Shown: positions 9,906-34,917 of the stretch, one piece after another
Layout: the number at the start of each line of letters is the position of its first letter
Numbering within the stretch: the stretch's first letter is position 1
DNA from: Curvibacter delicatus NBRC 14919
GTDB lineage: Bacteria; Pseudomonadota; Gammaproteobacteria; Burkholderiales; Burkholderiaceae_C
Direction: 5' to 3'
Length of the DNA: 40,106 nucleotides
Assembly: GCF_001592265.1 (NCBI RefSeq)
Contig: NZ_BCWP01000031.1
Span: forward strand, 1 to 40,106
Position numbers and translations under genes: made by a program
The notes under the pieces: generated by a model
What the model saw: only the letters and a program-made list of their open reading frames with translations
Database searches by the model: none
Told to the model about the DNA's origin: nothing

Positions 9906-10322
9906 TCAGGCCTGCGGACGCGGGATCTCGCGCGGCTTGCCCTGGTCGTCGATGGCGACATAGGTCAGGCTGGCCTCCGTCACCTTGACGAACTGGCCCT
10001 GGGCACGGAAGCGCTCGGCATAGACCTCGACCTTGACCGTCATGGAGGTGCGGCCCAGGCGCGTGAGCTTGGAATAGAACGACAGGATGTCGCCCACCCG
10101 CACCGGCTGCTTGAAGATGAATTCGTTGACGGCCACGGTGGCCATGCGGCCATCGGCGTAACGCGCCGGGATCACCGAGCCGGCCAGGTCAACCTGGGCC
10201 ATGACCCAGCCGCCGAAGATATCGCCATTGGCATTGCAGTCGGCCGGCATGGGGATGACCTTGAGGACCAGCTCCTCGTCGGAGGGCGGCTGGATCGGGG
10301 CGGAACTTGAAATCACGGACAT
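9906..10322 (-). CDS. Acyl-CoA thioesterase, YciA-like
   Basis: This hotdog protein has 138 residues. The signature is NANGDIFGGWVMAQVDLAG, with the catalytic Asp in GDIFGGW, as in YciA and other hexameric acyl-CoA hydrolases. The C-terminal segment VKVTEASLTYVAIDD is also typical. ATG at 10322 is preferred to an upstream TTG at 10337, which is in frame but atypical. Its 5' end overlaps the upstream region of the ABC exporter on the other strand, so the two genes are divergent with promoters that must interleave. Broad acyl-CoA specificity is usual for the family. Confidence 0.88.
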   Translation of the reverse strand: MSVISSSAPIQPPSDEELVLKVIPMPADCNANGDIFGGWVMAQVDLAGSVIPARYADGRMATVAVNEFIFKQPVRVGDILSFYSKLTRLGRTSMTVKVEVYAERFRAQGQFVKVTEASLTYVAIDDQGKPREIPRPQA

Positions 10323-10363
10323 GGGGGAAAATCTCAAAAAATAACCAGTTCGGATTGTCCTCT

Positions 10364-12265
10364 ATGCGCCGCTTTGGCGATACCGCCCTCACACCTCCCG
10401 CCAGCACGCCCTCCCAACCGGGCGTACCGCATTCCGACTGGGGCACGCTCCAGCGCCTGTTTCCCTACCTCTGGCAGTACAAGTGGCGGGTGATGGCCGC
10501 ACTGGCCTTCATGGTGGGGGCCAAGCTGGCCAATGTCGGGGTGCCGCTGCTGCTCAAGAACCTGGTGGACACCATGGACATCAAGCCGGGCGACGCGGTT
10601 GCCGTGCTGGTGGTGCCGGTGGGGCTGCTGCTGGCCTATGGTGCGTTGCGCCTGGCCACGTCGCTGTTTGCCGAGTTGCGCGAACTGGTGTTTGCCAAGG
10701 CCACCCAGGGCGCGGCGCGCAGCATCGCCCTGCAGACGTTCAGCCACCTGCATGCCTTGAGCCTGCGCTTCCACCTGGAGCGCCAGACCGGCGGCATGAC
10801 ACGCGATATCGAGCGCGGTGTGCGCGGCATCGAGTCGCTGATTTCCTATTCGCTCTACAGCATCGTGCCGACGCTGATCGAGGTGGCGCTGGTGCTGAGC
10901 ATCCTGGCCGTCAAGTTCGATGTCTGGTTTGCCTGGATCACCCTCGGTGCCCTGGCAGGCTACATCCTGTTCACGGTGACGGTGACCGAATGGCGCACCC
11001 AGTTCCGCAAGCAGGCCAACGAATTTGACTCGGCAGCGCACAGCAAGGCCGTGGATTCGCTGCTCAACTATGAAACCGTCAAGTACTTCAACAACGAGGA
11101 TTTCGAGGCCCGACGCTATGACGAGAGCCTGATGCGCCTGCATCAGGCACGGCTCAAGAGCCAGTCCACCCTGAGCCTGCTCAACACCGGGCAGCAGCTC
11201 ATCATCGCCATCAGCCTGGTGGCCATGCTGTGGCGCGCCACGCAGGGCGTGGTGGATGGGCACATGACGCTGGGTGACCTGGTCATGGTCAATGCCTTCA
11301 TGATCCAGCTCTACATCCCGTTGAACTTCCTCGGCGTGATCTACCGCGAGATCAAGCAGAGCCTGACGGACCTGGACAAGATGTTCACGCTGCTGGAGCG
11401 CGAGCGCGAGGTGGCCGACGTCCCGGATGCGCCGCCCTTGCAGGTCGATCAGGCCGATGTGCGCTTCGAGGACGTGAGTTTTGCCTATGATCCCTCGCGG
11501 CCGATCCTGCGCCACGTCAGCTTCGAGATCCCGGCTGGCAAGACGGTAGCCGTGGTCGGCCCTTCCGGCGCCGGCAAATCGACGCTGGCACGCCTGCTTT
11601 ATCGCTTTTACGATGTAGGGGTTGTGCCCCCACAGGCGCCTGCTGCGCATGACGCCTTGCCCCCCGAGGGGGCCGTCGCCGACTTGGGGCGGCCCGGCGT
11701 CGGCGGGGGCCGCATCACGATTGGCGGCCAGGACATCCGCAAGGTGACGCAGGCCAGTTTGCGGCAGGCCATCGGCATCGTGCCGCAGGACACCGTGCTG
11801 TTCAACGACACGGTGGAATACAACATCGCCTACGGCCGTCCCGGCGCCAGCCGCGCCGAGGTGGAGGAGGCCGCACGCGCGGCGCACATCCACGACTTCA
11901 TCGCCGCCACACCCAAGGGCTACGACACCATGGTGGGCGAGCGCGGCCTGAAGCTGTCCGGCGGCGAGAAGCAGCGCGTGGCGATTGCGCGCACCCTGCT
12001 CAAGAACCCGCCCATCCTGATCTTCGACGAAGCCACTTCGGCGCTGGATTCGGCCAACGAGCGTGCCATCCAGGCCGAGCTGCAAAGCGTGGCCCACAAC
12101 AAGACCACCTTAGTCATTGCACACCGTCTGTCCACCGTGGTGGAGGCGCACGAGATCCTGGTGATGGAGGCCGGGCGCATCGTGGAGCGGGGATCACATG
12201 CCGAACTGCTGGCGCGCGGCGGGACCTATGCCCGCATGTGGGCCCTGCAACAGAGTTCGGAGTGA
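10364..12265 (+). CDS. ATM1-type ABC exporter (membrane domain plus ATPase) with in-frame insertion
   Basis: A half-transporter of 633 residues. The membrane domain (about 40-340) is followed by the ATPase domain: Walker [10 protein letters not shown] at 399-407, signature LSGGEKQR, Walker [13 protein letters not shown] and the H-loop IAHRLST. The sequence closely resembles the ATM1/MsbA-like heavy-metal or glutathione-conjugate exporters of betaproteobacteria. About 30 residues (419-449), rich in Pro, Gly and Ala, are inserted after YRFYDV, between Walker A and the Q-loop, and coincide with a mosaic repeat. ATG 10364 is chosen; a TTG at 10307 would read through the divergent gene's start. 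Whether the insertion is tolerated is unknown. Confidence 0.9.
11618..11710. repeat. Mosaic repeat inserted in frame inside the ABC ATPase domain
   Basis: Exactly 93 bases (31 codons) are absent from typical ATM1 proteins. The insert holds GGGG-N5-CCCC (11618-11630), the perfect palindrome CAGGCGCCTG (11633-11642), a C6-GA-G5 hairpin around 11660-11672, and a stem GCCGAC (11678-11683)/GTCGGC (11699-11704) around the core CTTGGGGCGGCCCGGC (11683-11698). The same core occurs at 34769-34784 and, inverted, near 30968. No stop codon is introduced. Confidence 0.8.
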
Positions 12266-12300
12266 TTTGGGCCTTTGGTGCCGTTGAATAAGCGCAACAC

Positions 12301-19640: not shown

Positions 19641-19712
19641 GCGTCCCCCTGAGCGGCTGCGCCGCTTCCCCCAAGGGGGACGCCGCCAGCAGCCCGGCTA
19701 AGCCGGTTCTGC
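19641..19712. repeat. Compound hairpin repeat between gltL and pyrC
   Basis: Perfect outer arms GCGTCCCCCT (19641-19650)/AGGGGGACGC (19674-19683) enclose a second perfect hairpin AGCGGC-TGC-GCCGCT (19652-19666). A third, CCGGCT-A-AGCCGG, follows around 19694-19706. The right-hand part resembles, inverted, the stretch near 34825-34848. With no T-run it is not a classic terminator, but it could end or protect the glt transcript. Confidence 0.75.
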
Positions 19713-19749
19713 GGCAGCCCTGGTCTGAGACCGAGAGTGGCGGTTTTGG

Positions 19750-30948: not shown

Positions 30949-30951
30949 AGA

Positions 30952-31064
30952 GGTTTCGCCGCCGGGCCGCCCCCAGACGAAACGCGGCCCCGGCCCTGGC
31001 GCCGCGCAGGGCCTGTCTGCACGGGGGCAGAGAGCCACACGCAGTGGGCGAGCGTGGGGGCTCT
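30952..31064. repeat. Mosaic repeat after nhaR
   Basis: Bases 30952-30991 are the reverse complement of 34754-34793 with only three differences in 40. This block includes the stem arms TTTCG/CGAAA around the shared core. The right end has a second hairpin, AGAGCC (31031-31036)/GGCTCT (31059-31064), enclosing ACACGCAGTGGGCG, which resembles 34887-34901. The element fills the 118 bases between nhaR and the convergent pseudouridine synthase gene. Confidence 0.82.
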
Positions 31065-34674: not shown

Positions 34675-34917
34675 CGCCCTGTGGGGTCGCGCCGGAGGCT
34701 GCGACTCTTCGGCCCGTCCGAGCAGCTCAGAGCCGTGGGCCTCAGCCCCCCGAGGGGCCGCGTTTCGCCTTGGGACGGCCCGGCGGCGAAACCTCCATGG
34801 CTTGGCTCAACGAAATCCGCGGAATGCCGCGGAACCGGCTTTGCCGGGCCGCTGGCGTTGCCCCCTGCAAGGGGGGTGGCGAAGCGACACGCAGTGCGCG
34901 CAGCCTGGGGGTGGGCG
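34675..34917. repeat. Large mosaic repeat between Bug and CMD genes
   Basis: About 240 bases of GC-rich mosaic with several blocks seen elsewhere in the window. Bases 34754-34793 are an inverted copy of 30952-30991 (37/40). The core CTTGGGACGGCCCGGC matches the in-frame insert at 11683. CCGCGGAACCGGCTTTGCCG near 34826 is the inverted counterpart of the right part of the 19641 element. A C5-TGCAA-G6 hairpin and an ACACGCAGTG block follow. It fills the whole gap between convergent genes and holds no credible coding region. Confidence 0.82.

Follow-up and report, generated by a model that had tools for sequence, protein, structure and literature searches.

Rickettsia palindromic elements (RPEs) were reportedly described by Ogata in 2000 and 2002, and the title of the 2002 report is said to have called in-frame, protein-invading palindromes unique but recurrent in Rickettsia. 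RPEs are about 150 bp long and are repeats of Rickettsia (PMC10969869). A GC-rich repeat named BRE, published in 2011, occurs in Bordetella and Comamonadaceae as intergenic and tandem copies, with some copies lying wholly in coding sequences; full copies measure about 75-91 bp, partial ones 40-60 bp, and the GC content is 69.0% (PMC3110155). REP/RAYT and the GTAG- and CGTC-tagged repeats are short multi-copy hairpin repeats (PMC3733652), and the RU repeats of enterobacteria are also small (PMC2759123). For QMITE1/2 of Coxiella, mid-gene insertions have been reported in hypothetical proteins (PMC5896051). The original prediction for the DNA analysed here knew of no described equivalent of such an in-frame palindromic repeat in Comamonadaceae, and this has to be corrected, since a similar repeat, BRE, has been counted in that family (PMC3110155). 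The repeat family considered here lies in frame in some two dozen conserved proteins and shows unfilled sites in close species, a bias towards two reading frames and a covarying hairpin. It is very probably a selfish repeat that is translated as a flexible surface loop, with a habit like that of RPEs but unrelated to them.

The window, i.e., the whole stretch of 40,106 nucleotides that was analysed, is contig C31 of the 3.76 Mb genome of Curvibacter delicatus NBRC 14919 (the own genome, in what follows). The features of its exporter gene are as follows.

10307 to 12265, plus strand: Atm1-type ABC exporter gene, host of the insert, with Pfam matches PF00664 (ABC_membrane) and PF00005 (ABC_tran).
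11558 to 11584, plus strand: Walker A motif upstream of the insert, placed by counting along the translation.
11618 to 11710, plus strand: in-frame element copy of 31 codons (28 net) in the frame ..LPPEGA.., matched by the repeat model R1 at 11626-11714.
11659 to 11673, plus strand: perfect central palindrome GCCCCCCGAGGGGGC (H2), read from the sequence.
11676 to 11706, plus strand: right hairpin H3, with arms TCGCCGAC and GTCGGCGG, variable yet complementary, and the conserved core CTTGGGGCGGCCCGGC at 11683-11698.

The exporter reading frame encodes 652 amino acids and is stop-free through the block, and the PF00005 match spans the insert. Its nearest solved chains include ATM1-type exporters, e.g. 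4mrn. The 93-base block stands after the helix that follows Walker A and ahead of the strand preceding the Q-loop. It places 31 codons where each of the three closest relatives has 3, a net difference of 84 nt. In the matched N-terminal part these relatives are 91-95% identical to the exporter, and all three are without the block. The predicted in-frame insertion in the ATPase domain is confirmed; a block shared by all orthologues, which would have spoken against it, is not what the alignment to close relatives gave. The phmmer alignment of the exporter to its best solved chain, 7n58, breaks at the insert, where query 437 pairs with residue 531 and query 467 with 533. An AlphaFold2 model of the exporter, built on 38 close relatives, has a modest mean pLDDT of 69.7, and its longest stretch with pLDDT < 50 is 396-426, the insert being 398-428 there. 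Ten-residue blocks in the insert average pLDDT 28 and 26, compared with 73 for the preceding helix block and 86 for the following block. This low-confidence stretch fits a disordered loop without being proof of one.

The element is a dispersed, GC-rich, three-hairpin repeat of about 80-90 nt with an average GC content of 75.6%. A full unit starts with GCCCCCACGC, including a weak hairpin CACGC...GCGTG, continues into the palindrome GCCCCCCGAGGGGGC and ends with a third hairpin around CTTGGGRCGGCCCGGC. The palindromes of the original prediction, GCCCCCCGAGGGGGC and the arms TCGCCGAC/GTCGGCGG around CTTGGGGCGGCCCGGC, are real, and the core was also found, as had been claimed, in two intergenic repeats of the window between likely genes, at 34745-34788 (plus strand) and 30950-30991 (minus strand). 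These two copies, together with a second class of repeat in which CCCCCAAGGGGG-like palindromes stand beside CCGGCnAAGCCGG-like ones, are located as follows.

34736 to 34798, plus strand: intergenic copy with its left part missing, an R1 match to model positions 24-85 (repeat D15).
30950 to 30991, minus strand: intergenic partial copy with the right hairpin (repeat I2; core at 30961-30976 with 1 mismatch).
2648 to 2716, 19668 to 19726 and 34827 to 34883: second repeat class (repeats D6 and I1).

Arms of REP hairpins vary yet stay complementary. Among 22 own-genome core hits, a set taken from 30 of 45 core hits with two members that are probably chance, 95/132 of the outer six H3 pairs are formed, where 5000 shuffles average 66 and reach 86 at most. 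The sampled genomes give 50 distinct arm sets, in which 235/300 pairs form (shuffle mean 148, maximum 174 in 5000); in the 12 distinct in-frame arm sets it is 56/72 (mean 37, maximum 55). The in-frame arm sets still pair, and therefore the H3 hairpin is kept even within genes. Folding energy of the block is not unusual (z -0.62 as DNA and -2.09 as RNA) and was rejected as evidence, with z between -0.4 and -2.1, so the case for the element rests on recurrence and covariation. No target-site duplication was visible by eye in nine comparisons of filled and empty sites, and the marks of a MITE, terminal inverted repeats and target-site duplications, were not seen by eye in those nine comparisons and an alignment of 15 copies.

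A blastn search of the own genome with the DNA of the block gives 13 matches at E <= 0.001, itself included, the best non-self match having an E of 1.4e-11. The sequence GCYCCCCGAGGGGG occurs 20 times at up to one mismatch, compared with 0 for the reversed control; the other core alone, at up to two mismatches, gives 45 matches versus 23 for its control and is weaker evidence. R1 is a sequence-only model based on 15 copies of the own genome, 8 of which lie in genes, and may favour in-frame copies. At E <= 0.001 it matches the own genome 27 times and each of eleven relatives 4-68 times (G003 36, G024 9, G025 35, G018 35, G001 4, G015 21, G029 7, G102 68, G028 17, G032 5 and G027 31). Across the order, 20 of 200 genomes (own included) in eight family codes have a match at E <= 1e-6 under stricter filters. 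One of the hosts, G553 (family f4), carries the element in tandem twos and threes; it comes from another family of the same order, suspected to be Alcaligenaceae. The host genomes are Burkholderiales of 2.6-5.3 Mb, which are probably free-living. Two intergenic copies of the own genome, L006 (G000:C12:64143) and L009 (G000:C32:10081), fill short gaps between genes that by eye resemble rimM-trmD and mreD-mrdA. A variant element also encodes the C-terminal tail of a gene named by eye as ExbB-like (L062, G000:C9:78679).

A total of 129 copies from seven genomes were classified by codon usage in their flanks only, with a coding-potential classifier. The own sample consists of 24 loci hand-picked from repeat matches, with chance-looking matches and duplicates excluded, and the other sample of 99 stretches around R1 matches, taken in list order and with no selection by frame, from six relatives (G018, G003, G025, G015, G027 and G102). 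Matches of G027 and G102 were taken in part, the last G025 match was left out, G024, G029, G001, G028 and G032 stand outside the count, and 3 of 132 nhmmer matches (E 1e-6 to 1e-3) were excluded before counting. Twenty-six of the 129 copies are in frame within a gene (own 8/21, G003 5/22, G025 6/20, G018 2/20, G015 1/11, G027 2/10, G102 2/25). The remainder comprises 52 copies with the same strand but a different phase, 25 with a coding signal on one side, 16 in the same phase with a stop, 6 between opposite strands, 2 without a coding signal and 2 lying too close to an end; in these classes any gene-breaking insertions are pooled with intergenic ones. One site that is filled by alignment, that of rubredoxin reductase (L080), escaped the classifier.

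In the own genome, nine sites are read through in recognisable proteins: the ABC exporter, RibF, an M16-type peptidase, MoeA, an AidB-like acyl-CoA dehydrogenase, GlnD, UvrA, rubredoxin reductase and an FAD/4Fe-4S oxidase, some of these names having been assigned by eye. Hosts recognised by NCBIfam or Pfam include PheS, ValS, LigA, AroA (two sites), CobQ (two sites), PurL, RecJ, RecQ, XerC (near its start), Mpl, FdhD and UvrA. PheS, ValS and LigA are generally essential. When 24 of the 26 in-frame copies were scanned with NCBIfam or Pfam, a single stretch of the model spanned the insert in 17, including ValS, Mpl, AroA, PurL, LigA, RecJ, CobQ, RibF and MoeA, and none did in 7. Alignments to solved chains break at the insert region in PheS (45 query versus 4 chain residues) and in LigA (30 versus 3). 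UvrA carries an in-frame element at three different positions in three genomes (L240 in G018, L348 in G102 and L012 in the own genome), so some proteins may be especially tolerant of the element.

Under the preferred explanation, the block is one copy of a non-autonomous palindromic repeat of about 80-90 nt that occurs across Burkholderiales and enters both intergenic DNA and genes. Copies landing in frame in a permissive surface loop would be retained and translated in the cell as a flexible Pro/Gly/Ala/Ser-rich loop; in the exporter, this loop would connect the helix that follows Walker A with the strand that precedes the Q-loop. The element would be selfish and near-neutral rather than useful, and its movement would depend on a hairpin-recognising enzyme supplied in trans. 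Exactly one PF01797 (Y1 transposase) protein is present per genome in 8 of 8 genomes, and no element match at E <= 10 was found in the eight neighbourhoods of 3.4-3.6 kb (about 1.5 kb around) of these genes. The flanks hold AT-rich GGTCAGATTCC-type repeats and no element copy, and a RAYT/Y1 transposase was rejected as the identified mobiliser, though it may still act from a distant locus. The Y1-type transposase gene of the own genome (G000:C1:107917-108243, L250) lies upstream of an apparent large glutamate synthase gene.

The exporter site itself can be followed across lineages. Among 30 loci (the own locus and 29 relatives, L014-L043), the long block occurs in two, own and G029, and a longer loop of another kind in G001; in three the loop is 4 residues longer, and 24 pass straight on. 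Among 80 named exporter loci, the site holds a long insert in 5 and is empty in 56, and in the other 19 the loop is longer by 3-12 residues. The five filled loci (nzgw547, Variovorax sp. MHTC-1, an SRR9109409 bin, Pseudorhodoferax sp. Leaf274 and KLAP71) carry the insert at the same point and in the same orientation and frame, and at least four of 399 genomes of the family (own, G029, G102 and G179) match the insert peptide unshortened. On an insert-free tree of exporter genes, a quick tree with one support measure from which four duplicate rows had been removed beforehand, the seven filled genes need seven changes, and the starred branches force seven. The filled label is unclustered on this tree (500/500 shuffles are as low), and filled genes stand next to empty ones, as Variovorax MHTC-1 does with its sister CF079.

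The strongest competing account concerns this site, and holds that a single ancient insertion, followed by many losses or shortenings and by recombination between genera, explains the pattern in place of repeated insertion. It has a substantial chance of being right, somewhat short of even. The own genome, G029 and KLAP71 share the arms CGCCGAC/GTCGGCG, which among 102 parsed copies are carried only by the window copy, and a compensated version of them is common to Variovorax MHTC-1 and Leaf274. Arms that are nearly unique and yet common to different lineages suggest that the three same-armed inserts are probably not all fresh insertions. Exporter loops 8 residues longer, such as GIPGSPSVAGG, also resemble shortened forms by eye, whereas the seven changes and the empty sisters on the quick tree, and the reversion of empty sites to the canonical short loop, speak for repeated insertion. 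Loops of this length, mostly GIPGxxxxxxG, are found in some Ramlibacter, Polaromonas and other relatives (L110, L111, L118, L145, L148, L154, L161, L166 and L168), and are perhaps a shortened remnant of the element. Repeated insertion, short-tract transfer across genera and old insertion with loss may each lie behind the exporter inserts, and the analysis leans towards a mixture with recombination. It is doubtful, although conceivable, that a lineage outside Rickettsia is remodelling essential proteins by the ongoing in-frame insertion of a repeat whose sequence has come to encode a harmless linker in one frame per orientation, and that this repeat homes, or is carried, repeatedly to the same codon of the Atm1 loop across genera.

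Close species also differ at the other sites. Among the three nearest species, G003 carries the insert at two of the nine own sites (GlnD and the FAD oxidase), G025 at two others (RibF and rubredoxin reductase) and G024 at none. G018 has a UvrA copy at a place unlike the own one, and G001 has a copy near the own UvrA site. Compared with empty species, the net insert is 84 nt at four sites, 81 at AidB, 87 at GlnD, 90 at the FAD oxidase, 99 at MoeA and 69 at UvrA, so that all nine, from 69 to 99 nt, are multiples of 3. Around the empty GlnD site of G025 (L236) the identity to the own genome is 86 and 83%, compared with 94 and 93% for G024; the G025 segment is perhaps an allele replaced by recombination.

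The reading frame of the in-frame copies is strongly biased, with 24 of 26 copies (22 of 24 distinct sites) using two of the six frames. In the plus orientation nine copies read ..LPPEGA.. by script and a tenth by peptide, namely LigA (L312), which has an altered core and without which the count is 23/26. In the minus orientation fourteen copies read ..APSGGS.., and two of the 26 copies differ. When weighted by frame openness and with sites taken as independent, the bias has a P of about 2e-9, which becomes 3.5e-8 once a factor of 15 allows for the choice of the pair. Stop codons were rejected as the cause: among 101 copies that are not in frame, the used frames hold a stop in 23 and 19 copies and the unused frames in 8, 7, 11 and 45, so that three unused frames are interrupted less often. 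Arginine content is what separates used from unused frames, at 6.6-6.7% in the former and 15-20% in the latter. Cysteine and histidine are likewise more frequent in one unused frame; cysteine is a weak candidate for the cause, as only one unused plus frame is clearly richer in it (7.0% vs 3.9%). The used frames are thus the poorest in arginine and not the most stop-free, which points to translation with selection on the peptide. On a plain reading of these peptides, strongly basic loops would be purged and the surviving copies would be translated.

The inserted peptide might instead be useful, as a docking, regulatory or stress-related tag for its hosts. Such a role would agree with a near-identical peptide in unrelated conserved proteins, with the conserved frame and with one exporter site filled in seven lineages. 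It is nevertheless improbable, as the nine own sites are filled in some close species and empty in others, the functions of the hosts are unrelated, both orientations are used (10 and 14 copies) and give different peptides, and avoidance of arginine-rich loops can account for the bias. Highly improbable is removal of the block around protein synthesis, through intron-like splicing, ribosome bypassing over hairpins or intein-like excision, which a multi-hairpin segment within conserved, generally essential genes could bring to mind. Removal would make an open frame and a particular peptide frame needless, yet both are present, and the frame bias argues against splicing, bypassing and protein excision alike. 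By general knowledge an 84-nt block is also too small for known intron or intein machinery, and no Rfam family comes near its gathering score within 10300-12300 (E up to 1). A lineage-specific loop expansion of the ordinary kind, a broken gene or a faulty assembly has a negligible chance of explaining the block. The exporter loop does vary by 3-12 residues in 19/80 named loci, but the DNA of the block is a dispersed repeat and the ORF is unbroken. Homologous inserts are also found in other assemblies, in relatives with 79-84% identity, and stand at the same point in, for example, G029 and Variovorax sp. MHTC-1.

The preferred reading remains that of a selfish repeat which is translated into a loop. 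In-frame invading palindromes outside Rickettsia, in Burkholderiales genomes of ordinary size, would represent a more general route by which proteins gain loops, and Burkholderiales are tractable hosts for questions of tolerance, mobility and frame bias. The element also accounts for odd insertions in PheS, ValS, LigA, UvrA and other proteins that might be taken for errors or new domains. None of the open-licence PMC papers found by literature searches mentions in-frame insertion by the element in its title or abstract opening, this collection leaving most subscription journals outside its scope.

The comparison with Rickettsia made in the original prediction holds as a working analogy, for a dispersed palindromic repeat with patchy presence that lies in frame in many conserved proteins. 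As described in the literature cited above, RPEs are likewise small palindromic repeats found in frame in unrelated genes, where they add a protein segment, and are probably non-autonomous; the element lies in frame in protein-coding genes of unrelated function in 26/129 copies. The element is about 80-90 nt long with a Comamonadaceae host, in contrast to about 150 bp and Rickettsia, and it differs further in being GC-rich, in belonging to Burkholderiales and in having two peptide frames, one per orientation. Its size and host place it outside every RPE family.

QMITE1/2 and the RU repeats are similar in being small repeats that overlap or lie within coding sequences, sometimes in frame, but the mid-gene cases given for QMITE are in hypothetical proteins, whereas the element is inside conserved enzymes. 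With REP sequences, as far as their cited description extends, the element shares short many-copy hairpins, and variable complementary arms have been demonstrated for it here; unlike REP/RAYT, it is longer, is often in genes and is not linked to the single Y1 transposase.

The closest described repeat is BRE. No element copy was found beside lexA of G553, so LexA synteny gave no link to BRE in that genome, and a weak match (E 8e-4) at L371, the lexA locus of a genome from another family, was not counted as evidence. The section on BRE in its published account gives neither a count of in-frame copies nor a frame bias, empty sites or a list of hosts (PMC3110155). The GC content differs, at 69.0% for BRE versus 75.6% for the element. 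R1 matches measure about 75-90 nt, with partial ones in addition (e.g. 34736-34798), and the element occurs in Comamonadaceae and has tandem copies in G553. In size, partial copies, GC richness, presence in Comamonadaceae, tandem habit and copies in coding sequences the element resembles BRE as described, and by this description, as distinct from the letters of BRE (given in Figure 6 and the supplement of that report), the two are probably the same repeat.
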